From a bacterium (GTDB taxonomy: Bacteria > Lindowbacteria > 2-12-FULL-62-27): DNA of 64,000 bases. The notes beneath the pieces were generated by a model. The model was given only the letters and a program-made list of their open reading frames with translations, was not told the DNA's origin and did not search any database. A program made the position numbers and the translations under genes. This document shows, in pieces, positions 2,960 to 62,770 of the stretch; position 1 is the stretch's first letter; every line of letters starts with the position of its first letter. The stretch is from contig JACQOF010000127.1 in NCBI GenBank assembly GCA_016202645.1, forward strand, positions 62,001-126,000, written 5' to 3'.

Positions 2960-2989
2960 AGTATAACCAGGGTCATACTATGTTGTCAA
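2960..2989 (-). promoter_or_regulatory. toxin-antitoxin promoter with embedded operator palindrome
   Basis: Minus strand: TTGACA (2984-2989), 18-bp spacer, TATACT (2960-2965). The spacer and -10 hold an imperfect palindrome, AGTATGACC/GGTTATACT (2960-2979), the sort of site a ribbon-helix-helix dimer pair would bind. Predicted start of transcription is at about 2953, the first base of the GTG codon. Confidence 0.75.
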
Positions 2990-2993
2990 TAGA

Positions 2994-3120
2994 TCAGGGA
3001 GAAAGGGAGAGAGGGAGAAAGGGAGAAAGTCAGGATCCGGGGCGGGAATGACGGAGAGGGCTGAATAGTAACGATATGTTTAACCTTTCTCCCTCTCTCC
3101 CTTTCTCCCTCTCTCCCTGA
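2994..3120. repeat. GGGAGA polypurine inverted-repeat element (copy 2)
   Basis: Purine arm 2994-3029, pyrimidine arm 3085-3120. Read outward-in, both arms begin with TAGATCAGGGAG; on the right arm this TAG is the stop codon of the FecR-domain gene. The centre carries half of the GCGGGAATGACGGAGAGGG palindromic repeat and the gatatgtttaacc block shared with copy 1. Confidence 0.8.
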
Positions 3121-3121
3121 T

Positions 3122-5515
3122 CTAGTGATGAAACGGGTTCGGGTTGCCGAGCCAAGACGTCTGATCGAAGGGTACAGCGGCGCCGCTTTGCGGCGCGGGG
3201 GAGGTGAAATCGGCGTCGTTCGCGTCGTAGAACACCGTCCCGCTGAAGGCCGCCATCGGAGAATGGCCGTCTCCATCCACGTCAACGATCGTCGCTCCGG
3301 CCTCCGGATAGCCAGTCGGAACTGTTCCCCCGACGTTGACGTAGCCGAATCCGGCCGGACCGCTCGTCTCGAATCCCGAATTGCCGGTCACCGTACCCGC
3401 TTTGTCGGGGCTGTAGTAGACGATGTATGCATCCGCATACTGATCGAAATATACACCGGGATCTGGCGTATAGACATTGATGGTCACGATATCCCCGTGG
3501 CCGTTGAGATCGGGTGGAAAGGACAAAGGATTGAGAGGATCGCTGCCGAATTGGAATTCGGCCAGATTGGTGAAGCCGTCCCCGTCCAGATCGAGCCCCC
3601 CATCATTCGGATCGCTCAAATTCATTGAATGGACCGACTCCCAGAAATCCGGGATGCCGTCACCGTCCATGTCGGCATATCCACCCGGACCGCTCGCACC
3701 AACCGGGGTCTGCGTTGTCGTTGCCTCCGCCACAGGGACGGAAATGGCATCGAATGGATCCGTGGCGGATTGAAACTCCTGCAGGCTGGTGAAGCCGTCG
3801 CCGTCGGGGTCCAATAGGGCGTCGGCGGCGCTGTTCGGGTTCAAGCCGATTTGCAGTTCGTAATAGTCGGGGAGGCCGTCACCGTCGGCGTCAAAGGATG
3901 CGGCATCGAGAAAGAGAAGGGGATCAAGGCTGTTCTGAAATTCATATAAATTGGAGAGGCCGTCGCCGTCTGCGTCCAATAGGGCGTCGGCGGGGTTGTT
4001 GGGGTCCAATCCGTATTGCAATTCGTAAAAATTGGGGAGGCCGTCGCCGTCGTAATCTTCGGCGCCTGAACCCACGGATGCAAGGGTAACGCCGTGTGAA
4101 GTCGGGTCTCTCGGATTTGTCTGATCGTGAAATTCAGTTAAATTATCCCAACCATCCCGATCCGGATCTTGTTGAGCATCGCGCGGATCCAAAGGATTCA
4201 AGCCGTTCTCCCGCTCCCAGTCGTCCGGAATTCCATCCCCATCCGCGTCGCCGCCGGATACGACGGGCGGCGGCTGAAATTCCGGCGGAGGCGCCGGATC
4301 ACGCTGAGGGTCTAAGGAAGGATCTCCAAACGGATCGCCTTCTTCTCCCGGTGACGGAGGAAATCCTCCAGGATCGCCCACCGTTTTGTCGGGGTCATAT
4401 TGCCCACGCCCGGGACCATCCAACGTAGGCTGAAAATCCCTGTCCCCGTTGCCCAACTCCACCACCGGGCCGATCGACGGATCTACTGCGGCCGGATCCA
4501 GCAGTGAAGGTCCATCAGGCAGGCCGTCGAAGACCGGAAGATCCGCCGGGCCAAGGACGGACGGATCCATCGGTCCAATCGGCGCGGCTTCGGGAGCCAA
4601 GCCACCCACGGCAGGTCCCGCAACTTCGGGTCCCGCCTGGCCGACAGATAAGCCCGCATTCGACGCCGCCTCGAACAATTGCGTTACAGCCTGAACGGAC
4701 GCAAATCCCTGTTGAATGGCCTGGACCGCGCCCGGCCCCGCTCCCGATGCGGCCGCCACCTGAGCCATGATCTGACGGGCTTCCGTGGTCGGCGGCAATC
4801 CCGCCGCGATCTGCGCGACGATGGCGGCCGGGGCGCCCGCTTTTTCCGCCGCTTTGGCCGCGGCTTCCCGGGCCGCCGGAGGCGGCGCAATGTTTAGAAT
4901 TTGTTGGACGGCGGGCGGGAGGCGCTCGGCCTGCACCGGCGCGACAAATCCGGCGCCTTCGGTGATGCGGTTCACCGCGCCGAGGCCGGGGGTATACTCA
5001 GTCTCAAGCGTCGTTCCACGGATTCCGGCGACCGAGGCGGGCGTCGTCACCGTGAACCGGTTGGCTTTGCCGCTCTGCTTGTCGATTTTTGAGGTGAGCT
5101 TGCCGACCTGAAGAAAAATTTCGGTTTGATAGACTTTGTCGCTTTCCTGAGCGCGCCCCACCGCAAACTGCGCCAGCGGGGCGATGTCGGTCTGGCTGTT
5201 GGCGAAGGCCATCGTCGCCCGACCGTCGATACCCGCCGCGACTTGGTCGCCCGGACCGATGTCCATGCCGGCCTGGGCTTCGACCCACTCGGAAGTCCCG
5301 GCTTTCTGGACTTCGACGACGCCTTCGACCTTCGTCAAATTGCCCTTCATGGCGGCGATCCCGGCGGGAGGATTCTCGGCAAACGCTAAAACCAATGCCG
5401 TGCGGGGAACTGTCACGGAAGAAAGCAGATACACGAAGAACAGGGTGGCGAATTTTCTTGGGAAACTACACGGCCTGATTACAGGCGACCGACCCGAATC
5501 CGGAGGGTTACGCAT
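3122..5515 (-). CDS. exported FecR-domain protein with thrombospondin type 3 calcium repeats
   Basis: 797 aa. An N-terminal hydrophobic stretch (near residues 22-46) is the export signal. Residues about 57-185 form a FecR-like domain ([41 protein letters not shown]). Then comes an Ala/Gly/Pro-rich linker, followed from about residue 420 by repeated DxDGDGxPDxWE and DADGDGLSNLYEFQ calcium-binding TSP3 repeats. The C-terminal block ends GNPNPFHH, identical to the paralogue at 6040-8487. FecR domains in such proteins probably sit in the periplasm or at the surface. No sigma-factor gene is adjacent, so a signalling role is not supported. The start (5515) lacks a strong ribosome site, so an internal start is possible. 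Confidence 0.82.
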   Translation of the reverse strand: MRNPPDSGRSPVIRPCSFPRKFATLFFVYLLSSVTVPRTALVLAFAENPPAGIAAMKGNLTKVEGVVEVQKAGTSEWVEAQAGMDIGPGDQVAAGIDGRATMAFANSQTDIAPLAQFAVGRAQESDKVYQTEIFLQVGKLTSKIDKQSGKANRFTVTTPASVAGIRGTTLETEYTPGLGAVNRITEGAGFVAPVQAERLPPAVQQILNIAPPPAAREAAAKAAEKAGAPAAIVAQIAAGLPPTTEARQIMAQVAAASGAGPGAVQAIQQGFASVQAVTQLFEAASNAGLSVGQAGPEVAGPAVGGLAPEAAPIGPMDPSVLGPADLPVFDGLPDGPSLLDPAAVDPSIGPVVELGNGDRDFQPTLDGPGRGQYDPDKTVGDPGGFPPSPGEEGDPFGDPSLDPQRDPAPPPEFQPPPVVSGGDADGDGIPDDWERENGLNPLDPRDAQQDPDRDGWDNLTEFHDQTNPRDPTSHGVTLASVGSGAEDYDGDGLPNFYELQYGLDPNNPADALLDADGDGLSNLYEFQNSLDPLLFLDAASFDADGDGLPDYYELQIGLNPNSAADALLDPDGDGFTSLQEFQSATDPFDAISVPVAEATTTQTPVGASGPGGYADMDGDGIPDFWESVHSMNLSDPNDGGLDLDGDGFTNLAEFQFGSDPLNPLSFPPDLNGHGDIVTINVYTPDPGVYFDQYADAYIVYYSPDKAGTVTGNSGFETSGPAGFGYVNVGGTVPTGYPEAGATIVDVDGDGHSPMAAFSGTVFYDANDADFTSPAPQSGAAVPFDQTSWLGNPNPFHH

Positions 5516-6039: not shown

Positions 6040-8487
6040 CTAGTGATGAAACGGGTTCGGGTTGCCCTGCCAGGACGTCCGGTTGTTTGGATTCGCACCG
6101 GGGGTCTGCTCGCCCGGAGCGTTGTAGTCGCCGTCGTTGGAGTCGTAGAACGCGGTGCCGTTGAAGGCGGCAAGCGGAGAATGCCCGTCGCCGTCGGCGT
6201 CGACGATGGTCGTGTACTGCCCCTCGCCAGTTCCGTAATCCGGCGCCGATGTGGAATTGGATCCGCCGACATTGACGTACCCGAACAACCCTGTTGCCCC
6301 GTCGCTGGTCTGATAGATCATGCCGGAATACGGCTGCATGTCCCCGGCTCTATCGGGATTGTAGTATACTCGGTGCCCATCCGAGTACTGGTCGCGCTTG
6401 ACGCCGAAGTTGACCATCACGCCGCCCACGATATCCGAGACCAAATAGTCGATGGTCACGATATCTCCGTGCCCAGTCCCCGACGCGGTCGAAGAGGACT
6501 TTTTGGGATCGCTACCGTGCTGGAACTCGTACAAGTTGGTTTGACCGTCGTTGTCGAAGTCTTCATTGGGGCCCGTGAAGGATCCAGTGATCAAGCCATG
6601 CTGGCTTTCCCATGCATCCGGCATCCCGTCGCCATCAGCGTCCGGAAATCCGCCGAGACCGCTGGGACCGCTCGCAGGGTCGTCGACGTTGTCCCCGCCG
6701 GGCGGAGGGCCGGAGGGAAATGACGCGGCGTCTCGGGGATCAGTACCTGCGAGATATTCTTCCAAATTGTTGTAGCCGTCGTTGTCAAAGTGCAGGAGAG
6801 CATCATTCGGATTTTTAGGATCCAGCCCATGATCCAACTCCCACTGATCCGGGATATGATCCCCGTCGAAGTCACCGGTGGAACCGGTGACGGGCAACTG
6901 ATAGTAGGGATCGTATGTTGCGAAGACCGGGCCCAGGGTCGGATCAAAATACCCGGCGCCGAAAAATCCCGCCGGATCGCCGAAGGCGAGGGCGGGGTCG
7001 AAGGCCGGGCCGAAAAACGGGCCGATGGCCGGACCGAAAAATCCGCCGAAGTCTCCGGGGCCGAACGCTCCGGGGCCTCCCTCAAAGCCTGGCTGAAAGA
7101 ATGCCCCGTCGCCCATGCCCAGTTCCATGACCGGGCCGAAGGCGCCGCCAAAACCTTCAGGGCCGCCGAACATGCCCGGGTCCATCGGACCGCCGAACAT
7201 TCCCGGATCCATCGGACCGCCGAACATGCCCGGGTCCATCGGACCACCGAACATGCCCGGGTCCATCGGACCGCCGAATCCAAATGTCATCGGACCGCCA
7301 AACATGCCCGGATCCATTGGGCCGCCGGGCATCCCCGGCATAGGACCTCCCGGCATCATACCCTCGGGTCCGCCCGGCGCGCCCGGCATCCCGGGCATTC
7401 CCGGCATAGGCCCGCCCGGCATCATGCCTTCGGGACCGCCCGGCGCACCCGGCATCCCGGGCATTCCTGGCATCGGGCCGCCCGGCATCATACCCTCGGG
7501 ACCGCCCGGCGCACCCGGCATCCCGGGCATTCCCGGCATCGGCCCGCCCGGCATCATACCCTCGGGACCGCCCGGCGCACCCGGCATCGGTCCGCCCGGC
7601 GGAGGCGCGCCAAACGCGGGTACACCCGGACCGACGGGAGGCGCGGCGAGATCGCCGACGCTGAATCCGGCGTTGGCCGCGGCCTCGAACATCTGCGCCA
7701 TCGCCTGCACCGGCGCGAATCCCTGAGAAATCGCCTCAATGGCGCCCGCACTCGCGCCCGCCGCGGTCGCCACCTGCGCCATGATTTGACGGGCTTCAGT
7801 GGTCGGCGGCATCCCCGCCGCGATCTGCGCGACGATGGCGGCCGGCGCGCCGGCCTTTTCCGCCGCCTTGGCCGCGGCTTCGCGCGCCGCGGGGGGCGGT
7901 TCGACATTCAACATCTGTTGCACCGCCGGCGGCAGTTTATCCGCCTGCACCGGCGCGACGAATCCGGCGCCCTCGGTGATGACGTTGGACGCGCCGACGC
8001 CCGGCGTATACTCCGTCGACAGGGTCGTTCCGCGGATTCCGGCGACGGACGTGGGCGTCGTCACCGTGAAGCGGTTGGCCTTGCCGCTGGCTTTGTCAAT
8101 TTTGGAAACGAGTTTTCCGACTTGCAGATAAATTTCGGTTTGATAGACCTTGTCGCTTTCGGCCGCGCGCCCGAGCGCGAATTGCGCCAGCGGCGCCACG
8201 TCCGTCGTGCTGTTGGCAAACGCCAGCGTGGCCTTCCCGTCAATCCCCGCCGCCACCTGGTCGCCCGGCCCGATTTCCATGCCGGCTTTGGCGTCAGTCC
8301 ACGCGCCGCTTCCGGCCTTCTGGACCTCCACCGTTCCCTCGACTTTCGTGAGCTTGCCGTTCATCGACTTGAAATCAGCCGCGGCTGCCGGTTGTTTGGG
8401 TGGATCTTCCGCAAATGTTTGACTGGAAAAAGAGCTCAGTATGATCAGCGAACCCAATGTCAAGCCGATCAAGGATCTGATTTTCAT
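6040..8487 (-). CDS. exported FecR-domain protein with Gly-Pro-Met repeats and TSP3 repeats
   Basis: 815 aa. The start at 8487 is chosen over the longer frame because GGGAGG lies 7 bp upstream and [17 protein letters not shown]... opens a good signal peptide ending SSQTFA. A FecR-like domain follows (about residues 40-160, [28 protein letters not shown]), then an Ala-rich helix region closely matching the paralogue. A long low-complexity segment of [19 protein letters not shown] units and GGPMDPGMF units comes next. TSP3-type [17 protein letters not shown] and [12 protein letters not shown] repeats precede the conserved C-terminal block ending GNPNPFHH. Likely a surface or periplasmic calcium-binding protein; the Gly-Pro part could act as a flexible stalk. 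Confidence 0.85.
7162..7600 (-). repeat. in-frame coding tandem repeats (27 bp and 66 bp units)
   Basis: Two arrays lie inside the FecR/TSP3 gene. About 7162-7325 has five near-identical 27-bp units encoding GGPMDPGMF plus one diverged unit. About 7330-7600 has four 66-bp units encoding [21 protein letters not shown] variants. Unit number is likely to vary by slippage without breaking the frame. Confidence 0.85.
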
Positions 8488-8689
8488 TCGAATGCCTCCC
8501 GGCGACACGCCTCTATTTTTGGAACGACCACCCACGCAGGCCGTCCCCCCTCCCGACAACGAACCATCGACCAATATGGACTCAGTATCCTACCAACAGG
8601 ACAAAAAGCAAGGAATTTTTTGGTGTTTTTGGTCACAATGCACTTTTCTAATCCTTAGAATATCAGTCTCAATGGTAACCATTCAGGTC

Positions 8690-8760
8690 GTCATTCCCGC
8701 GAAAGCGGGAATCCAGATTATCGCAGGGCGGACTGGATTCCCGCTTTCGCGGGAATGACG
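8690..8760. repeat. REP-like palindrome pair (GTCATTCCCGCGAAAGCGGGAATCC family)
   Basis: Two hairpins in inverted orientation, each with the core ATTCCCGC-GAAA-GCGGGAAT, flank gatta-tcgcagggcggact. This is in the 315-bp gap upstream of the second FecR/TSP3 gene. The rest of the gap (8488-8689 and 8761-8802) holds the ribosome site of that gene and a short palindrome ATGGTAACCAT at 8672-8682; I see no gene in it. Confidence 0.85.
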
Positions 8761-12847: not shown

Positions 12848-14068
12848 GTGAACACTTCAGGGATGAGATATCTGGCGGATGAGCTTGGGAGAATCCTGGA
12901 CAAAGAGCGGAAAATGGCGTTTGTAGCCGGGCCGCGGCAGGTGGGAAAAACCACTCTGGCGAAGTTTCTGCTGAAGGCGGTGGGGAGCGACGGGTATTTC
13001 AACTGGGACATTGAGACGCACCGACGGGCGATCATCAAAAACCCGGTTGATTTTTGGTCAAGCTCGGCGCCGACCCGCATCGTGCTTGACGAGATTCACA
13101 AATATCCGAGATGGAAACGGTTTTTAAAGGGTCTGTATGACGAGGCGGCCGAATCGGTGCAAATGATTGTGACCGGCAGCGGACGGCTCGACATCTACCA
13201 GCGCGGCGGCGATTCTCTCCTGGGCCGATACGGCCTCTATCGCCTCCATCCCTTTACGGTCGCCGAGCTTCTGGCAAAAAATCGCCGCAGCATTCTGCCG
13301 CCCGACCGGTGCCTGAATCTCATTTTGTCGGATCCTCCCCCGCCGGGCGCGAAAGAGGCATTGGAGTCCATTGAAACATTCACCGGATTTCCGGAACCGC
13401 TCTTTGCCTCAAGCGTCTCCCGGCTTCGGCGCTGGCGCGGGGCCCGGCGCCAACTCGTGCTGAAGGAGGATCTCCGGGATTTGACGCGCATCCGGGAACT
13501 CGGCCTGATCGAGACCCTTGTGGCGATGCTTCCGGAGCGGGTCGGATCTCCGCTCTCTTTGAACTCGCTTCGGGAGGACCTGGGCGTGGCGTTCGGGACG
13601 GTGAGGGATTGGGTGCGGGCGCTCGGCCGTCTATACTATATTTTTGAGATCCGGCCCTATGCGGGGAATCTGGCCCGGGCCCTGCGCCGGGAGGCCAAGG
13701 TCTATCTTTTCGATGGATCGGATATCGAGGGCACGGGCGCCAGGTTTGAAAATCTCGTCGCGCTGCATCTTCACAAGGCCTGCGACGCGTGGACCGATCT
13801 GGGATTCGGCGAATGCGCGCTCCATTACGTGCGGGACAAGGAAAAACGGGAGGCAGATTTTTTGGTCGTGAAGGACAAAAAACCATGGCTTCTGATCGAG
13901 ACCAAACAATCTTCGTCATCCCCGGCCCCGGCCTTGAAGTATTTCCGGGAGCGCCTCAAGGCTCCCCACGCGTATCAACTCGTCCGCGACGCGCCGCCGG
14001 CGTTCCTGGCGAAACGGCACGGCGTTACGGTTGTATCGGCCGCGCGCTTTCTGGCTCGGCTGCCGTAG
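12848..14068 (+). CDS. AAA+ family ATPase with DUF4143 domain
   Basis: 406 aa. Walker A GPRQVGKTT (about residues 28-36) and Walker B IVLDEIHKYPRWKRFL with the sensor region VTGSGRLDIYQRGGDSLLGRY. The C-terminal part has DIEGTGARFENLVALHLHKA and READFLVVKDKKPWLLIETKQ, the nuclease-like fold of DUF4143 proteins. These ATPases are common, often horizontally moved and poorly understood. The start is GTG at 12848 or ATG at 12863. A perfect inverted repeat AAAAAAGTC/GACTTTTTT (12818-12837) sits just upstream and may be an operator. The 3' end overlaps the convergent membrane-protein gene by 44 bp. Confidence 0.85.
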   Translation: MNTSGMRYLADELGRILDKERKMAFVAGPRQVGKTTLAKFLLKAVGSDGYFNWDIETHRRAIIKNPVDFWSSSAPTRIVLDEIHKYPRWKRFLKGLYDEAAESVQMIVTGSGRLDIYQRGGDSLLGRYGLYRLHPFTVAELLAKNRRSILPPDRCLNLILSDPPPPGAKEALESIETFTGFPEPLFASSVSRLRRWRGARRQLVLKEDLRDLTRIRELGLIETLVAMLPERVGSPLSLNSLREDLGVAFGTVRDWVRALGRLYYIFEIRPYAGNLARALRREAKVYLFDGSDIEGTGARFENLVALHLHKACDAWTDLGFGECALHYVRDKEKREADFLVVKDKKPWLLIETKQSSSSPAPALKYFRERLKAPHAYQLVRDAPPAFLAKRHGVTVVSAARFLARLP

Positions 14069-15512
14069 AGCAAACAGCGGGCGCCACAAGCGCTCTCGCC
14101 GCCAATCCCGCGGTCAAGACCAGGAGGGCGATTCCGGCGAGGATGGCGGGGCCGCCCGACTGAACCCACCAGATCTTGGCGCCTGTAGGATCTTCGAGAA
14201 AGATCTGCAGGTAGCCGATGAACCTTGGGGGAGCGGTCTCAAACTGCCCGGCCCAGCGGCGGTAGGCGACGCCGTATTCCAGACAGCCGATGATCTGCGT
14301 TAGAAAGGAAACGCCGAGGACGGCGGCGGCCGGAATGACCGCGGCCGCTCGTCCCCAACGCGGATTGAGGGAAATCCCATCCTGGGATTTCCTGATACTG
14401 AAGCATTGGGGACTGGACTTCCATGTCCGCTGCAGGGCGAGAAGACATTCCGGGAGCGCCAGATAGGCGAAGGGGACCGCCGGCAGGAGAAAGCGCTGGC
14501 CGTAGGAAAGATCGTATCCGGGCTGGCTGGCGTACCACGTGCCGTAGACGTAGAGGGATATGGCCATGAACAAAAGCGCCGCCCAGGATTCCGCCGGATG
14601 CGCGCGGTGGAATTTCCGCCAGAAAAGAAGGGACAACACCACCGACAGGGAATAGACCACAAATCCCTTTTCCCACGAAAAGAGCACATGAAGCGCTCCC
14701 TGAATAAAGGGCTGGCTGAACAGATACATTTCGGACTTGTAGCCGGTAGAGAAAAATGAGCCGTAGGCGTGGCGGTTGAAGAGAAGCAAGGCCGCGGCGG
14801 TCAGGATCGGCGGGATCAGGCCCGCCAGGAACTGGCGGCGGCATGTTTCCGGGGTGAATCGCCCCGCTTTCCAGACCCCATATATATATAGAGAGAAGGG
14901 CGCCAGAAACAGTACGGTGTCGGGACGGACGGCCACGGAGGCCGCGAAACAGGCGCCGGCGAATGCGGCCCGCCAGGTCGATGCGGTACCCAGCGTCCGG
15001 ATGGCGTAGAACGCGGCAAACAAGAGGACGGTGCAGGAAAGATTACCGAAGAGACTTCGGGAATAGGGCAAAAGTTCGCTGGTGAAAACAAGCAGGAGCG
15101 CGGCTGCGGCGGAGAGCCTTGGGCTGTATCCAAGATGCGTCCACATCCAGAACGCCAGGACGCCCAGGAAAGAGACTGCGAGGGGCCCGAAGAAAAACGC
15201 CGCGGTCATGAACTTATCCCCCTTCTTCTCAAGCGAATCGGCGGGATCGATAAAGAAAGCGGCAACCGCCGCGAACGGGGTCAGGATGACGGACTGGCCC
15301 GGGCCGAATTTGGGGTACATCCGGCCGGATGGCGCGGTGACGAAAAATTCGGAATGATAAATATCGGCCATCGGGATGTCGATGTCGCCGTGGTCGATGA
15401 GGGAGGTCGCGGCGTAGAGCGGGAGGAGTTCGTCGATTGATTCGGTGTGGATGCCGCGAATGGCGAGGGTCAGGCACAGGCCGCAGAGGAAAATCGAGAG
15501 CGGGCGGTTCAT
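14025..15512 (-). CDS. GT-C-like multi-span membrane protein
   Basis: 495 aa with about 11 hydrophobic spans. The N-terminal loop has IDELLPLYAATSLIDHGDIDI and FGPGQSVILTPFAAVA, resembling the first periplasmic loop of GT-C glycosyltransferases (PMT/ArnT-like), which use lipid-linked sugars. It is the last gene of the lpxB-msbA-acyltransferase run, overlapping the acyltransferase by 4 bp (ATGA), so a role in lipid A or cell-surface glycan modification is plausible. A similar protein is encoded at 20204-21781. Residues about 361-387 are encoded by a palindromic repeat (14351-14430) and look like an insertion. Substrate unknown. Confidence 0.75.
   Translation of the reverse strand: MNRPLSIFLCGLCLTLAIRGIHTESIDELLPLYAATSLIDHGDIDIPMADIYHSEFFVTAPSGRMYPKFGPGQSVILTPFAAVAAFFIDPADSLEKKGDKFMTAAFFFGPLAVSFLGVLAFWMWTHLGYSPRLSAAAALLLVFTSELLPYSRSLFGNLSCTVLLFAAFYAIRTLGTASTWRAAFAGACFAASVAVRPDTVLFLAPFSLYIYGVWKAGRFTPETCRRQFLAGLIPPILTAAALLLFNRHAYGSFFSTGYKSEMYLFSQPFIQGALHVLFSWEKGFVVYSLSVVLSLLFWRKFHRAHPAESWAALLFMAISLYVYGTWYASQPGYDLSYGQRFLLPAVPFAYLALPECLLALQRTWKSSPQCFSIRKSQDGISLNPRWGRAAAVIPAAAVLGVSFLTQIIGCLEYGVAYRRWAGQFETAPPRFIGYLQIFLEDPTGAKIWWVQSGGPAILAGIALLVLTAGLAARALVAPAVCSTAAEPESARPIQP
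14351..14430 (-). repeat. palindromic coding element, copy A
   Basis: An 80-bp block aligns without gaps to 59495-59574 (63 of 80 bases identical by my count). It has an outer stem CCCCAACGC/GCATTGGGG (14353-14361, 14403-14411), an inner stem GGAAATCCC/GGGATTTCC (14370-14378, 14384-14392) around ATCCT, and a small hairpin GGAC...GTCC. It lies inside the GT-C-like gene and is read there in a different frame from copy B. Confidence 0.8.
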
Positions 15513-17959: not shown

Positions 17960-19146
17960 GCGTGGAGAAACACCCCTGCGGCGGCGGCGGCCACGCGGCC
18001 GGCGGCGCCTTTCGGGCCGAGCTTTGCCGCCGTGTCGGCGAGGAGCGCGCGCATGGCGGATCGGCGGGACTGATCGGACAGGAGCCGCCGGGCTTCGTCG
18101 GCAAGCGCCCGTGGCGTGAAACGGTCCTGGATCAGTTCCGGGACGACCGGAGCGTCCGCGAGGATGTTCGGCATCGCGCAGTATTTCACGTTCACCAGAA
18201 GCCGGGCGATCAGGTAGGACAGGCGCGACAGCCGATAGCCGGCGATCATGGGCGTGCCGAGCAGCATCGTCTCGACGGTCGTCGTGCCGGTCGTGACGAG
18301 GGCCAGGTCCGAGGCCGCCACAAGCGTGTGCCGCTGGCGCTCGTCCGCCAGGAGAAACGCCTTCAAATTCGGGGGAGCGCTCTGCATCCAGTACCGGTAA
18401 AATCCGGAAGGGATCGTGCGGGCCTGCGCGATCATCACGGCGAGCGGCCGCTCCCGCGCCAGAAGCGACGCCGCCTCCCACATCACCGGAAAATGCCGGG
18501 ACACTTCCTGGCGGCGGCTGCCGGGCATGAGAGAGATCAGCGTATCTGTTTCGCCAAGCCCCAGCCGCTTGCGGGCGGCCCCGCGGGATTCGGCCGGGAC
18601 GACGCGGTCCACGAAGGGATGGCCGACAAACTCGACCGGACAGCCGGCGGATTCGTAGATGGCGGTCTCGAAGGGAAACAACACAAGCATTTTTTTAATG
18701 CGGCGCGCCAGGGTTTTCGCGCGGCCTTTCCGCCAGGCCCAGACCTGCGGGCTGATGAAAAAAACGACGGGGAGATTGTGTTTCGCCGCAAGCCGCGCGA
18801 TGTGTAGATTCAGCCCGGGATAATCGATGAGGAGAAGACCGTCCATTTCGCCGCGCGCCATCATCGCGTCGATCCGGCCGAGGAGTTTCCGGAAGTATCC
18901 GAGATTCTTGACCGCCTCGGAAAACCCGATGACCGCGCGGTCCACGATGTTTTCGATGAGGTCCAGCCCGGCCGCCCGGGAAACCTCCCCCCCCAGCCCG
19001 AAAAAAGTGAATTGCCCGGGGTATTTCTCCGCAAACGCCCGAAGCACCATCTCGGCATGCATCTCGCTCGACAACTCCCCGGACGACACAAATATTCTTT
19101 TGACTTTCTCCCTCTCTCCCTCTCTCCCTTTCTCCCTCTCCATCAT
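17956..19146 (-). CDS. lpxB: lipid-A-disaccharide synthase
   Basis: Condenses UDP-2,3-diacylglucosamine with lipid X to make the lipid A disaccharide, peripheral to the inner membrane. 396 aa. Family motifs: FVSSGELSSEMHAE, GLLLIDYPGLNLHIARLA, FFISPQVWAWRKGRAKTL, VEFVGHPFVDRV, ISLMPGSRRQEV and TTGTTTVETMLLGTPM. The start is ATG at 19146 (or the next ATG, 19143), overlapping the stop of the oxidoreductase gene. Codons 3-14 (EREKGREGEREK) come from the GGGAGA polypurine repeat, so the repeat forms the N-terminus ahead of the first conserved strand VKRIFVSSGE. Other LpxB proteins have a short, unrelated N-terminus here. Confidence 0.93.
   Translation of the reverse strand: MMEREKGREGEREKVKRIFVSSGELSSEMHAEMVLRAFAEKYPGQFTFFGLGGEVSRAAGLDLIENIVDRAVIGFSEAVKNLGYFRKLLGRIDAMMARGEMDGLLLIDYPGLNLHIARLAAKHNLPVVFFISPQVWAWRKGRAKTLARRIKKMLVLFPFETAIYESAGCPVEFVGHPFVDRVVPAESRGAARKRLGLGETDTLISLMPGSRRQEVSRHFPVMWEAASLLARERPLAVMIAQARTIPSGFYRYWMQSAPPNLKAFLLADERQRHTLVAASDLALVTTGTTTVETMLLGTPMIAGYRLSRLSYLIARLLVNVKYCAMPNILADAPVVPELIQDRFTPRALADEARRLLSDQSRRSAMRALLADTAAKLGPKGAAGRVAAAAAGVFLHA
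19104..19140. repeat. GGGAGA polypurine element inside lpxB (copy 4)
   Basis: A single uninterrupted arm of the family lies immediately after the lpxB start codons and in frame with the gene. On the coding strand it is GGAGAGGGAGAAAGGGAGAG and onwards. No opposite arm is seen. Confidence 0.85.
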
Positions 19147-20087
19147 GACTTGGATGCGAGCTTCTCGATCCGCAGCGCCAGCGACAACGCCGCAACCGCC
19201 TCGCGGATGCCGGGCTCGGCCGGGCGGCCGTCCCGGATGCAGTTGACGAAATGCCGGAGTTCCTTCCGGAGCGGTTCCTCGGCGTCCGGGAATTCCTGAC
19301 GGTCGATGTCGAGGTCCAGGAGGGATTTCAGGGTCCCGGGGGTTTTCTTGCAATACCACTCGTAGGAGCGGTTCTTGAAGTCGATCGAGAGGTAACTATC
19401 GGGCTGGAACACCCGGATTTTCCGCATGGCCTCCATCGACACGCGGCTGGCGGTGATGTTCGCGACGACGTTGCCGGAGTATTCGAGCCGCGCGTTTACA
19501 ATGTCGAGGCGGTCGGTCAGGACCTTCGCGCCAACCGCCGCGACTTTTTTCAGCTTGCGGCCCTTCATCAGAAGCTGGACGATGTCGAGATCGTGGATCA
19601 TGACGTCCAGCGCCACCGACACGTCCATCGCACGTTCCGGGAAGGGGCTCAGGCGGTGGACTTCGATGAACCGCGGGTCAGCGATGCGGTCCCGGACGGC
19701 GAAGAGCGCCGGGTTGAAACGCTCGATGTGGCCTACCTGGACCAGCTTTTTGGCATTCCGGGCAGCGCGGTCGATTTTCCGGGCGTCGGCGAGATTAAGC
19801 GCGATCGGTTTTTCGATGAAGACGTGGGAGCCGCGCGCAAGCAGTGCCGTCGCGGCTTCCGAATGGGCGCTCGTCGGGACCGATACCACCGCGAAATCGA
19901 CGGGGGGAATATCCGCGGCGGACGCGAAAAACGGAGCGCCGAATTTCTCGCCGACTTCCTTTGCGCGGTCCGCCCGCAGATCGGCGACGGCGGCCAGGCG
20001 GACGCCTTCGAGGGACGACAGAATCCGCGCGTGATGAAATCCGAGATGGCCCACGCCGATCACGGCGGCGGACAACATATCTGCCAT
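19143..20087 (-). CDS. Gfo/Idh/MocA family NAD(P)-dependent oxidoreductase
   Basis: 314 aa. The N-terminal Rossmann fold has AAVIGVGHLGFHHARIL and the catalytic-loop motif HVFIEKPIALNLADA, typical of the family; QVGHIERFNPAL and DVMIHDLDIVQLLM follow. It oxidises or reduces a sugar or nucleotide sugar. It sits directly before lpxB (4-bp overlap). Oxidoreductases in this position of lpx clusters are known; the UDP-GlcNAc 3-dehydrogenase GnnA, which makes amide-linked lipid A precursors, is one precedent, but no GnnB-like aminotransferase is in the window. Starts at 20099 and 20078 are also possible; none has a clear ribosome site. Confidence 0.87.
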   Translation of the reverse strand: MADMLSAAVIGVGHLGFHHARILSSLEGVRLAAVADLRADRAKEVGEKFGAPFFASAADIPPVDFAVVSVPTSAHSEAATALLARGSHVFIEKPIALNLADARKIDRAARNAKKLVQVGHIERFNPALFAVRDRIADPRFIEVHRLSPFPERAMDVSVALDVMIHDLDIVQLLMKGRKLKKVAAVGAKVLTDRLDIVNARLEYSGNVVANITASRVSMEAMRKIRVFQPDSYLSIDFKNRSYEWYCKKTPGTLKSLLDLDIDRQEFPDAEEPLRKELRHFVNCIRDGRPAEPGIREAVAALSLALRIEKLASKS

Positions 20088-58333: not shown

Positions 58334-60100
58334 CTACTTCCGGCTTCGCCTCACGCGTTCCAGGTTCTGCCGGGCCAAGTCCATGTGCGGGTGCCGGGCG
58401 ACGACATCCGCCAGGAGCGTTTCCGCTTCGACCGCGTTGCCTGTCATCCAGAGAAGTACCGCGAGGTTGTGTTTGGAGTTGACGTAGTGCGGGTCTTCTT
58501 TGAGCGCCAGCCGGTAGGCCTCGATCGCTTCTGAAAACTGTTTCGTGTTCTGATAGGAGTATCCCAGATTGTGGTGGATGCCGGCGCGGTGACGCCCCGG
58601 AACGGTTCGAAGGGCCTGCTGATAGGCTTGGCGTTCTTCTGCGCGGCGGTCCACGGACCCGTAAGCGATGCCGAGGTTGTTCCAGGAGGTCCAGTCCAGC
58701 GGCGCGATGCGCGTGGCGTCCTGCAGATACTGGATTTGAAGTTTGATATTTCCCGCCCGGCCGTATTCACCGGCCAGTTCACGGTAGGCCAGATGAGATT
58801 TCGGAAAAGCATGGATGGTCTCCTGCCAGACCGCAATCGGCGACTGCCAGGTGACGTTCCGGGCGAAGGTCAGGCCGCCCAGGACGACCACTCCGGTCCA
58901 TGCGGCTTTCTGAATCCAGTTGCCGTATCGAGACCAAGCCGACTCGATCAAAGTCGTCATCGCCCAAAACGGGCCGATCAAGGCCATGTAGAGGTGGCGG
59001 TCCGAGATCTGGTCAATCCGGGGCACAACCGAATTCGTCGGAGACAGGGCGGCCAGATACCAGCCAAGCGCAAACAGATAAATCCTTTGGCCCCTGCGAT
59101 ACTGCCGAACGCAGGCGCCCGTCAAGATCGTCCAGAACAAAACCGGTCCGATGACGACGAAGTCGAGTACGCCGCCTGGCAAATCGAACTGGTAGACGAT
59201 CGAAAATCCCGTTGGGAAGACGGCGCGGGCCAGGCCGATGAAGAGGCAAAAGGGCTGCAAGAGCAGATAGCGGGCGGCATTCGGGACATGAAAGCCGAAG
59301 TTATCCGCGTGATCTGTTTTGAGAAACAGGAAACCGGCGACGGATGCGGCGGCAGACAGGACACTTACCGCGAATGCCACTTTCGAAAACCGCGCGAAAG
59401 CCGGCCGGAGGACGGCGGAGACGAGTAGATACAGCGCCGGAAGAACTACCGCCGTTTCCTTGGTCATCACCGCCAAAACCGCCAGGACCAGCGCGCCCCC
59501 AACGCGCAATGGAGAAATTTCCGTCCTGGAAATTTCTGAGACTGGAGCGTTGGGGACTGGACATCCCTGTCCGCCCCCAACGCGCAATGGAGCGGAACCG
59601 GTCCGCAGTGCCATCAGGGCGCCGAGGAGAAACGCGGTCACGAGAAGATCCGAACGCCCGTAAATATAGGAGACAGCTTCCATCTGTGTTGGATGGACCG
59701 CAAAGAGAGCGGCGGTCAGAGCGGCCGCCGGCGCCGAGGCTCCGAACCCGCGGACGAGATACAAAACCAGCACGGCATTGATCCAGTGAAGAACCATGTT
59801 CACGATGTGAAACCCGCCCGGGTCCGGGCGGCCCGGGGACTGTAGAAGCAACTGGAGGTACCACGTGACGTGAGTCAGGAATCGGTTCTGCTGAAAGTGC
59901 TGCGTCACGTCATGCCAGAAGGCCTTGCCGGACACGGACGGCCAGTAATCGAGATATATCTGATAGTCGTCCAGCAGGAAGGGGATTTTTAGAGATGGGA
60001 AAAAAACAGCCGCGATCAGGATTCCCAGAACTCCGGCCCACCGGAACATCCCGGTTCCGGCGGCCTCGGCACGGGTGGGTTTGTGTTTTCGGTTCGACAT
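58334..60100 (-). CDS. TMTC-like multi-span membrane protein with C-terminal TPRs
   Basis: 588 aa; start MSNRKHKPTRAEAAGTGMF at 60100 with AGGGGCG upstream. About 10 membrane helices with PFLLDDYQIYLDYWP and NRFLTHVTWYLQ near the N-terminus and HPTQMEAVSYIYGRSDLL, LALSPTNSVVPRIDQISDRHLYM further on: this matches GT-C/TMTC-type proteins (the DD near the first loop, and PTN). Four TPRs (about 430-570) follow. Residues about 170-202 (PLRVGGGQGCPVPNAPVSEI) are encoded by a palindromic element with a repeated PLRVGG and look inserted. Likely lipid-linked-sugar mannosyl-type transferase; substrate unknown. Confidence 0.8.
   Translation of the reverse strand: MSNRKHKPTRAEAAGTGMFRWAGVLGILIAAVFFPSLKIPFLLDDYQIYLDYWPSVSGKAFWHDVTQHFQQNRFLTHVTWYLQLLLQSPGRPDPGGFHIVNMVLHWINAVLVLYLVRGFGASAPAAALTAALFAVHPTQMEAVSYIYGRSDLLVTAFLLGALMALRTGSAPLRVGGGQGCPVPNAPVSEISRTEISPLRVGGALVLAVLAVMTKETAVVLPALYLLVSAVLRPAFARFSKVAFAVSVLSAAASVAGFLFLKTDHADNFGFHVPNAARYLLLQPFCLFIGLARAVFPTGFSIVYQFDLPGGVLDFVVIGPVLFWTILTGACVRQYRRGQRIYLFALGWYLAALSPTNSVVPRIDQISDRHLYMALIGPFWAMTTLIESAWSRYGNWIQKAAWTGVVVLGGLTFARNVTWQSPIAVWQETIHAFPKSHLAYRELAGEYGRAGNIKLQIQYLQDATRIAPLDWTSWNNLGIAYGSVDRRAEERQAYQQALRTVPGRHRAGIHHNLGYSYQNTKQFSEAIEAYRLALKEDPHYVNSKHNLAVLLWMTGNAVEAETLLADVVARHPHMDLARQNLERVRRSRK
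59495..59592 (-). repeat. palindromic coding element, copy B, with partial second unit
   Basis: Aligns gaplessly with copy A (14351-14430). Perfect outer stem CCCCAACGC/GCGTTGGGG (59497-59505, 59547-59555), inner stem AGAAATTTCC/GGAAATTTCT (59513-59522, 59528-59537) around GTCCT, and hairpin GGACA-TCCC-TGTCC. The first 20 bases recur exactly at 59573-59592, a 78-bp period (26 codons). Confidence 0.85.
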
Positions 60101-60189
60101 CGCCCCTGATATACAACCAACGGGACGATTGGGCAATCGGTTAAGGCATCTTCACGGCAAATCCGATAAGTTATACATCGGAGGTGCGG

Positions 60190-60570
60190 ATGTCACGATT
60201 CATATTTCCTCTCATCGCCGGCCTGGTCATCGCCGTGATCTTCCAAGCCGGAGCGGCGTTCGGCGCCGGCAACAGGGACCTCGTCAACAAGTACCACGAG
60301 ACTCTCGAGAAGGGCTGTCCGCCGGTGGTAGTCAAGCACACGGTGGTGGCCGGCGTTCTCGGATTTCTGCCGGGCGGCGGGATGTACTTTACCGAAAACT
60401 ACGGCGCCGCCATCCGCGACACGCTTCTGTGGCCGCTCTCGGTGCTCTGGGATCCCTTTCTGGCGGTAAGATCCGCCCGGGCTCAGAACATGCAGGCGAC
60501 GATCCGGGCGTGTCAGATCAGCGAATCGAGAAAATCAGGGAGAGAGGGAGAAAGGGAGAAAGGGAGATAG
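60190..60570 (+). CDS. exported protein of unknown function with repeat-encoded tail
   Basis: 126 aa. ATG 60190 has GGAGG 5 bp upstream. Signal peptide FIFPLIAGLVIAVIFQAGAAFGA. The mature part has VVVKHTVVAGVLGFLPGGGMYFTENYGAA and a second hydrophobic stretch RDTLLWPLSVLWDPFLAV, like small membrane-associated proteins with a LPGGG loop. The last 11 residues, SGREGEREKGR, are encoded by the GGGAGA polypurine repeat, so the natural C-terminus was probably near QISES. Function unknown. Confidence 0.7.
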   Translation: MSRFIFPLIAGLVIAVIFQAGAAFGAGNRDLVNKYHETLEKGCPPVVVKHTVVAGVLGFLPGGGMYFTENYGAAIRDTLLWPLSVLWDPFLAVRSARAQNMQATIRACQISESRKSGREGEREKGR

Positions 60571-60755
60571 GCGGGCTTTGGGAAGTGTAACGCCTTTTCA
60601 AAGCGCCTGACCGTCGTCACTATTCAGCCCTCTCCGTCATTCCCGCGCAAGCGGGAATCCAGATGATCGCAGGGCGGACTGGATTCCCGCTTGCGCGGGA
60701 ATGACGACCTGGTACTGACTATCTCCCTTTCTCCCTCTCTCCCTTTCTCCCTCCC
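60536..60755. repeat. composite element: GGGAGA arms enclosing a REP-like palindrome pair
   Basis: Outer arms 60536-60570 (purine) and 60721-60755 (pyrimidine), both ending inward in GGGAGATAG. Inside, 60636-60706 is a full GTCATTCCCGCGCAAGCGGGAATCC pair with the spacer gatgatcgcagggcggact, nearly the spacer of the 8690-8760 copy. It separates the convergent 60190-60570 and transketolase genes and contributes the 3' coding end of the former. Confidence 0.85.
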
Positions 60756-60757
60756 AA

Positions 60758-62770
60758 CTAGGACTTGAGCAGAGTCCGCGCCTCCTCGGCCACCCGCTCG
60801 GAGGTAAAGCCGAACTGCTTGAGCAGTTCCTTGAGCGGGGCCGACGCGCCGAATTCCCTTCGGCCGATGACAGCGCCGTCGGTGTAGATGCCCACGTAGC
60901 GGCGCCATCCCAGGGTCGACGCCGCTTCCACCGCGACGCGCTTGCGGCACGTGGGCGGCAGGACTTTCTGGCGGTAGGCCTCGGACTGCATCTCGAAAAT
61001 CTCGTAGGACGGGAAACTCACCACCCGCGAGCGGACGCCCTCCGATTTGAGTTTTTCGTGGGCCTCGACGCAGAACTGGAGTTCGGATCCCGTCGACATC
61101 AAAATCACCTGCGGCGGGCCGTCCGAATCGGCGAGGATGTAGGCACCCTGGTGGAGGCCTGAAGCCGGCGCGTACTTTGCGCGGTCCAGGGTCGGCAGGG
61201 CCTGCCGGCTCAAAATCAGCGCGACGGGATGATTCTTGTTTTTCATGATCCATCGCCACGCTTCCGCGACTTCGTTGGCGTCGCAGGGTCTCAGCACCAC
61301 GAGGTGCGGAATTGCGCGCAGTGAAACGAGGTGCTCGATCGGCTGATGGGTCGGGCCGTCCTCGCCGACGCCGATCGAATCGTGCGTGAAAATGTGCAGG
61401 ACCGGCAGTTCCATCAGGCTGGCGAGGCGCAGGGTCGGGCGGCAATAATCGGAAAAGATCAGGAATCCCGAGCCGTAGGCCCGCAGTTTGGAAATCGTCA
61501 TCGCGTTCATGATCGATCCCATGCCGTGCTCGCGGATGCCGAAATGGAGATTTCGGCCGCCGTAGGAACCTCTCTGAAAATCTCCGCCGTCCGCAATCCG
61601 GGTTTTGGTCGAAGGCGTCAGGTCCGCGGAACCGCCAACCAGCCACGGGACCTGTTTGGCAATCACCGCCTGGACCTTGTTGGAGGAATCCCGGCCCGCG
61701 AGGCCTTTGGGGTCGGCCGGAAAACTCGGAATGTCCTTGTCCCATCCGGCCGGCAATTCTCCCTTCTGCATGTGCTGGAACTCTTCGGCCAGGGCCGGAT
61801 GCGCCTTCGCGTAGTCGGCGAACTTCCGGTTCCACTCCTCTTCCGCCTTCATGCCGCGATCGACGGCTTTCCGCATATGCGCCGCCGCCTCGTCCGGCAC
61901 CAGAAACTTCGCCTCCGGCGGCCAGCCGTAGCGCTGTTTGGTCAGGCGGATTTCCTCATCGCCCAGGGGCTCGCCGTGCGCGCCCGACGTGTCCTGCTTG
62001 TTCGGCGCGCCGTACGCGATGTGGCTGTCGACGATGAGAAGCGTCGGCCGTTCGGTTTCTTTCCGGGCCGTATCGAGGGCCCACGTGAGAAGCCCGAGGT
62101 CGTTCGCGTCGCCGACGCGGTGGACGTTCCAGTGATAGGCCATGAACCGGGCCGCGACATCCTCCGAGAACGCCAGCGACGTGTTGCCTTCGATGGTGAT
62201 GTGGTTGTTGTCGTAAATCCAGACGAGATTGTTCAGGCCGAGATGCCCGGCCAGGGACGCCGCCTCGGACGAAACGCCCTCCATGAGGCACCCGTCTCCG
62301 CAAATGGCGTAGACCCGGTAATCGATGATCTCGTGGCCGGGCCGGTTGAAATGGGCGGCGATCCATTTTTGGGCGATCGCAAATCCAACGGCGTTGGCCA
62401 CGCCCTGTCCGAGGGGCCCCGTCGTCGTTTCGACGCCGGGGGTGATGCCAAACTCGGGATGCCCCGGACATTTGCTGTTCCACTGCCGGAAATTTTTCAG
62501 CTCGTCGAGCGGCAGGTCGTACCCCGTGAGATGCAGCATGCTGTAAAGAAGCATGGAAGCATGCCCGGCCGAGAGGATGAACCGGTCCCGGTTGGGCCAA
62601 TTGGGATTTTTTGGATTGTGCCTTAAGAAGCGGTCCCAGAGCGTGTAGGCGACCGGCGCCAGCGCCATCGGCGTTCCGGGATGCCCGGAGTTGGCCTTCT
62701 GCACGGCGTCGATCGAAAGCGTCCGAATGGTGTTGATGCAGATATCGTCAATGTTATTTGTCCCGTCCAT
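60758..62770 (-). CDS. tkt: transketolase
   Basis: Thiamine-diphosphate enzyme of the pentose-phosphate pathway. 670 aa, full length. Motifs: [68 protein letters not shown] (ThDP/Mg), [17 protein letters not shown] with the catalytic glutamate, [20 protein letters not shown] and [14 protein letters not shown]. It stops 3 bp after the polypurine arm. No other pathway gene adjoins. Confidence 0.96.

Follow-up and report, generated by a model that had tools for sequence, protein, structure and literature searches.

Two membrane-protein genes in the window (the whole stretch of DNA analysed, 64,000 nucleotides; C106:62001-126000 of an uncultured Lindowbacteria genome of 2.92 Mb in 146 contigs) each contain a palindrome of 80 bp. 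What are these palindromes, and are they, as an earlier note proposed, comparable to the Rickettsia palindromic elements (RPEs), which invade ORFs in frame?

We observed the two copies at the positions reported earlier, copy A at 14351-14430 and copy B at 59495-59574 (both on the + strand), and they aligned over 80 bp without gaps. Another alignment of the pair gave 79% over 84 bp. The ends are sharp in both, with GCCCCC at the 5' end (GTCCCC in copy A) and TGTCCGC at the 3' end; the conserved 3' motif is found at two places in the window and in none of 100 shuffles of it. In copy A, the outer stem is formed by 14353-14361 and 14403-14411 (columns 3-11 and 53-61, assigned from the alignment and by folding), with one mismatch in this copy. 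The inner stem is formed by 14370-14378 and 14384-14392 (columns 20-28 and 34-42), which enclose the loop 14379-14383, and the terminal hairpin GGAC..GTCC at 14415-14428 (columns 65-78) is followed by the GC end. The paired substitutions in the inner stem, on which the proposal rested, are real: columns 21/41 change from G-C to A-T, 24/38 from A-T to T-A and 26/36 from C-G to T-A, with a loop of 5 in both copies. Single-strand folding of the two window copies gave z-scores of -4.65 and -5.95 relative to shuffles.

The ORF around copy A (14025-15512, - strand) encodes 495 amino acids, by eye a multi-spanning membrane protein. The element is antisense to it in frame -ph2, and codon usage calls an equal frame on both flanks. 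The ORF around copy B (58334-60136, - strand) encodes a 600-residue membrane protein with C-terminal TPRs, to which the element is antisense in frame -ph1. An 18-bp 5' fragment of a second unit (CCCCAACGCGCAATGGAG; 59575-59592, + strand) lies in tandem to copy B and adds 6 codons. Both ORFs run through the element, in the same orientation and in different frames, as had been described. The GT-C-like label given earlier to the hosts is unproven: the only match for the host of copy A was Glyco_transf_22 at E 0.02, and that of copy B has the TPRs.

Other repeats were also observed in the window. The ORF 6040-8574 (- strand) has tandem 27-bp and 66-bp repeats at 7133-7654. A second dispersed repeat, GTCATTCCCGCG..CGCGGGAATCCAG, is REP/BIME-like and frequently occurs as inverted pairs (at 8696, 20116, 28366, 48207 and 60642 on the + strand and at 8733, 11287, 20154, 28404, 44918 and 60679 on the - strand); it was near just one of 13 RAYT loci. 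Arrays of an 8-bp unit of the CTCTCCCTTTCTCCC type, in both orientations, are present at 990-1123, 2985-3133, 19093-19160 and 60526-60775, frequently close to the inverted REP-like pairs.

A plain DNA search of the whole genome gave 40 good places. With a covariance model of the 80-bp family (R1), a search of the kind that the earlier note had called for, we obtained 58 places at E <= 0.1, of which 50 scored above 86 bits; copy A scored 94.4 bits and copy B 106.1 bits, the top score in the genome. The proposal would have failed had no further copies existed, and about 55 additional ones were found. These copies are dispersed, with unique flanks and fixed ends. R1 found 9 places in G001, a genome of the same family and another genus. 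Among 386 genomes scanned (60 at first, then 386), there was one match outside the family, a distant one in genome G290. An exact-pattern scan for the 3' motif in a genome contig collection, from which the host genome may be excluded, gave nothing. The assignment of the host to Lindowbacteria is inferred from one gene, ValRS, whose closest named sequences belong to Candidatus Lindowbacteria at 85 and 81% identity. No such elements in Lindowbacteria were found in the literature searched, a limited collection.

Conservation of the fold extends to the family. In 34 aligned copies, 98.9% of the inner-stem cells are paired, and both-side changes at 21/41, 24/38 and 26/36 occur in 14, 5 and 13 distinct rows, respectively. 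Shifting the partner columns by 1-3 reduced the paired cells from 92.7% to at most 55%. The outer stem is weaker than the inner one: it is intact in the CCCCAACGC sub-family, whereas in the CCCCTTCGC sub-family the middle three pairs do not form. We therefore rejected the outer-stem conservation seen between copies A and B as a rule for the family.

R1 also detected elements of 82-83 bp that carry a TACATCCCTGTA hairpin and whose outer stem, GTCCCTGTTGC...GCAACAGGGAC, is stronger. The lengths in this sister branch vary between 79 and 84 bp, unlike those of the ORF branch. A second model, R2, was built from nine sister-branch elements only (31 pairs, 11 with double changes), and it recovered the ORF family with E-values down to 3e-8. 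As R2 recovers the ORF branch, the homology of the two branches is shown independently. Sister-branch members adjoin the 3' ends of tRNA genes for Leu (twice), Lys (twice), Arg and Trp, and the 5' ends of those for Gly and Glu. At eight such loci, the palindrome, here of 82-84 bp, directly touches the tRNA gene, its 3' end always at an end (5' or 3') of the mature tRNA, and some of these palindromes are in tandem. Three further loci adjoin hairpins with A/T runs that by eye resemble intrinsic terminators. The tRNA/terminator branch probably represents elements of the same kind, with a variable length and a different integration niche.

Next, we consider the sites without the element. The proposal could also have been refuted by orthologues that all carry the segment, and this was not so: it is absent from orthologues in G001 and G002, which represent two sister genera. 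The best-aligned empty sites are consistent with 26 residues having been gained net (E2 acyltransferase against G002, CbiB against both, and LeuRS against G001), and on removal of 78 bp the joined flanks of these three genes have the length of the orthologue. RibF against G001 fits 25 residues, not 26. The second unit next to copy B begins at 59573 and the first at 59495 (with the shared GC counted), a distance of 78 bp, and a copy on contig C52 is followed by the same 5' fragment. The net unit is thus most likely 78 bp, or 26 codons, which is well supported, although the exact length depends on distant orthologues, from different genera, and on the tandem spacing; in copy A we take it as 14353-14430. 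Consequently, one GC of the 80-mer is common to the element and its target. The left flank reads YCC in 27 of 52 copies (background 0.046) and GYCC in 14 of 52 (background 1.4%), mirroring the 3' end of the unit itself, GTCC-GC, and giving the target as (GY)CC|GC. The inverted arms lie inside the element, whose ends are a direct GC (or CGC); a duplication of 2-3 bp therefore cannot be distinguished from a conserved target. Target duplications longer than 2-3 bp were looked for and not found.

Most copies lie within one long ORF that reads through them. When codon usage was called separately for each flank, the two sides agreed in strand and frame in 35 of 54 R1-type copies, which is a minimum count of copies within ORFs. 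Where both calls were confident, 15 of 18 copies were in frame, and the remaining three are inferred from the ORF map to lie at gene ends or boundaries. The 35 copies are distributed over both orientations and five of the six frames (-ph1, 11; +ph2, 10; -ph0, 8; -ph2, 4; +ph1, 2), and the sole frame with stops, +ph0, is used by none. Pfam domains lie across the insert or beside it in ValRS, LeuRS, RecG, SMC, E2 acyltransferase, RibF, YgfZ/GcvT, CbiB, NAD-GDH, a RecF-like ATPase, transketolase, a response regulator and several histidine kinases, as well as in a UvrD-type helicase with two copies and at the linker of a glutaredoxin-thioredoxin reductase. RpsB carries the element in its C-terminal tail, and the LpxK copy is cut short by the end of the contig. 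These Pfam assignments, together with the independent codon-usage calls, establish the in-frame invasion of unrelated conserved genes. Two length variants within genes also remain in frame: the helicase has one of 77 bp, and another, of 47 bp, lacks the inner hairpin. The latter (C99:41448-41494) has lost 33 bp, or 11 codons, and kept both ends. Two copies in one gene were seen at three loci, encoding an S1-domain protein, the UvrD-type helicase and a spermidine-synthase-like protein.

The extra residues were mapped on a structure model of ValRS, as the earlier note had suggested (mean pLDDT 85; 38-sequence alignment). The insert (residues 600-627) maps to the segment 601-640 with pLDDT below 50, a predicted disordered linker, which is the only long disordered stretch and lies between the confident helices 573-596 and 643-664. 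In LeuRS and E2, the alignments to PDB sequences are interrupted exactly at the insert, and in RibF it lies in a gapped stretch between aligned blocks. An AlphaFold model of E2 from three sequences had a pLDDT of 40 and was discarded.

The dispersal, the fixed ends, the empty sites, the in-frame residence and the hairpin kept by paired changes are all observed. We infer from them that the 80-bp family is a non-autonomous mobile palindrome, RPE-like in action and translated as a tolerated peptide insert, and we put the probability of this reading at about 0.8; mobility, translation and the mobilising enzyme are inferences. A net 78 bp would be inserted at sites ending in (GY)CC-GC, and the 3' end of the unit, TGTCC-GC, would restore the motif on the right. 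Transposition may proceed via a single-stranded intermediate, by analogy with the guide pairing of IS200/IS605 and REP systems (PMC8266576, PMC5934647). The target could be chosen by pairing of GGAC of the terminal hairpin with GYCC of the target, and a host HUH enzyme might mobilise the element in trans. As the unit has 26 codons and is open in five of the six frames, a host gene remains readable in nearly any orientation and phase. The added Pro/Gly/Ser-rich peptide would be tolerated in loops, linkers and termini; that it is translated and not removed rests on open frames only and is the simplest reading. The openness in five frames is not significant relative to shuffles (P about 0.2), so it need not be an adaptation; we rejected it as a sign of one, since it is not unusual for such a composition.

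A narrower version of the mobile palindrome names the enzyme, and takes the copies as REP-type elements moved by a resident RAYT (TnpA-REP). Y1-transposase genes of the RAYT type are indeed present (10 in the host genome, 8 in G001 and 6 in G002), and the terminal hairpin beside a short conserved end is reminiscent of HUH substrates. However, none of these 24 loci in the three genomes was flanked by the element (best R1 E-value 1.4), and the RAYT loci were therefore rejected as the autonomous partner. There is also no GTAG (or CGTC) tag at the foot of the hairpin in the 34 aligned copies, and the element has 80 bp and is mostly intragenic, versus 20-50 nt for REPs, which are mostly intergenic (PMC8266576). 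We consider this version unlikely.

Could the element be an intervening sequence that is absent from the protein, an RNA cut from the mRNA or skipped by the ribosomes? The strong fold with its covariation would suit this, RNA-level roles are conceivable for a family whose related branch adjoins tRNA genes and terminator-like hairpins, and palindromic bypassed elements in Magnusiomyces mitochondria provide a precedent (PMC6649704). However, the copies within genes use both orientations and five phases, and still every length found in ORFs (80, 77 and 47 bp) maintains the reading frame; removal or bypass needs neither a length of 3n nor open frames, and thus leaves the frame keeping unexplained. 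Against removal, a comparison of nine loci with Rfam gave only tRNAs above the gathering score, and at 80 bp the element is shorter than the known self-splicing introns. The removal or bypass of the insert is therefore very unlikely. Equally improbable is that the repeats are regulatory or structural elements selected by the host, for example mRNA hairpins for the control of decay or translation, and not selfish DNA. The inner stem is held by compensatory changes, as expected of such elements, but paired changes can also stem from active source copies without selection at each site. Moreover, both orientations are used, the hosts are functionally unrelated, the tested sites are empty in the sister genera, and related copies lie at tRNA ends and terminator-like hairpins. 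Common protein ancestry of the inserts is ruled out, as the earlier note had argued, because the different frames yield unrelated peptides.

The mobile palindrome, which we thus prefer, has distant relatives. In G290 and G152, the only two genomes examined of another phylum-level group, we observed 74-bp elements of the same plan with a net unit of 72 bp, at six loci. The in-frame hosts in G290 are CRISPR cse1 (CasA), a calcineurin-like phosphoesterase and a 7TM/HisKA_3 protein. A 660-residue ORF of G290 without Pfam match carries two 74-bp units in tandem at a spacing of 72 bp. Whether the likeness reflects common descent, transfer or convergence remains open. A superfamily of pairing-guided, single-strand mobile palindromes, with at least two deep lineages (78-bp and 72-bp units), a codon-fixed length suiting essential genes and a tRNA/terminator sister branch, is a tentative idea that we hold to be rather doubtful at present.

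Compared with known systems, the resemblance to RPEs is supported as a behaviour, the in-frame invasion of conserved genes; no sequence kinship is shown or claimed, and mobility is inferred. The RPE families were reportedly described by Ogata in 2000 and 2002. RPEs are palindromes of 105-146 bp in Rickettsia; of the first 44 reported, 19 were located in ORFs with the frame kept (PMC2229807, PMC10969869). They are described as present in all Rickettsia and Wolbachia (PMC3767692). They also occur in RNA genes (tmRNA, M1 RNA), and translation of the insert was shown for Rickettsia gmk (PMC2229807). Like RPEs, the Lindowbacteria element is a short palindrome with tens of copies, in frame in unrelated conserved genes. 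Unlike them, it resides in a host outside the Rickettsiales, has 80 bp (net 78) versus 105-146 bp, consists of two nested stems and a terminal hairpin, has a fixed codon-multiple unit and a CC-GC target, and its sister branch adjoins tRNA genes and is not inside them. Thus, the family acts like an RPE, yet by lineage and length it is not one. PMC2229807 also cites protein-coding palindromic repeats of Wolbachia and, in Methanocaldococcus jannaschii, palindromic repeats with coding potential (Suyama 2005); these are likewise coding palindromes from other organisms, and as they lie outside Rickettsia, the kind is not unique to that genus.

With REP/RAYT (HUH) and IS200/IS605, the element shares a hairpin beside a short conserved end, the lack of a clear target duplication, and a similarity of target and end suggestive of pairing-guided cleavage; unlike REP/RAYT, it has no GTAG, is longer and mainly intragenic, and none of the Y1/RAYT loci was found associated with it. 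ERIC/RU and other bacterial MITEs are likewise small and non-autonomous, and they too can form in-frame fusions with genes (PMC2759123, PMC10969869), but they are mostly intergenic with few in-frame cases, whereas the Lindowbacteria copies are mostly intragenic, many of them in conserved genes. PARCELs are likewise palindromic coding sequences spread between genomes (PMC2996958); unlike these intragenic tandem repeats, which form repeat proteins, the Lindowbacteria copies are mostly single insertions in unrelated proteins. Set beside these systems, the family comes with a defined unit and target motif, with empty sites, and with about 35 host proteins, some of them essential. It provides concrete substrates for studying by which route such elements move and how a protein accommodates 26 extra residues. 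Coding palindromes have hitherto been regarded as peculiar to Rickettsia and Wolbachia, apart from a single report in an archaeon, and their mode of movement is open. An unrelated family in another phylum shows that evolution has repeatedly taken the route of invading proteins in frame.
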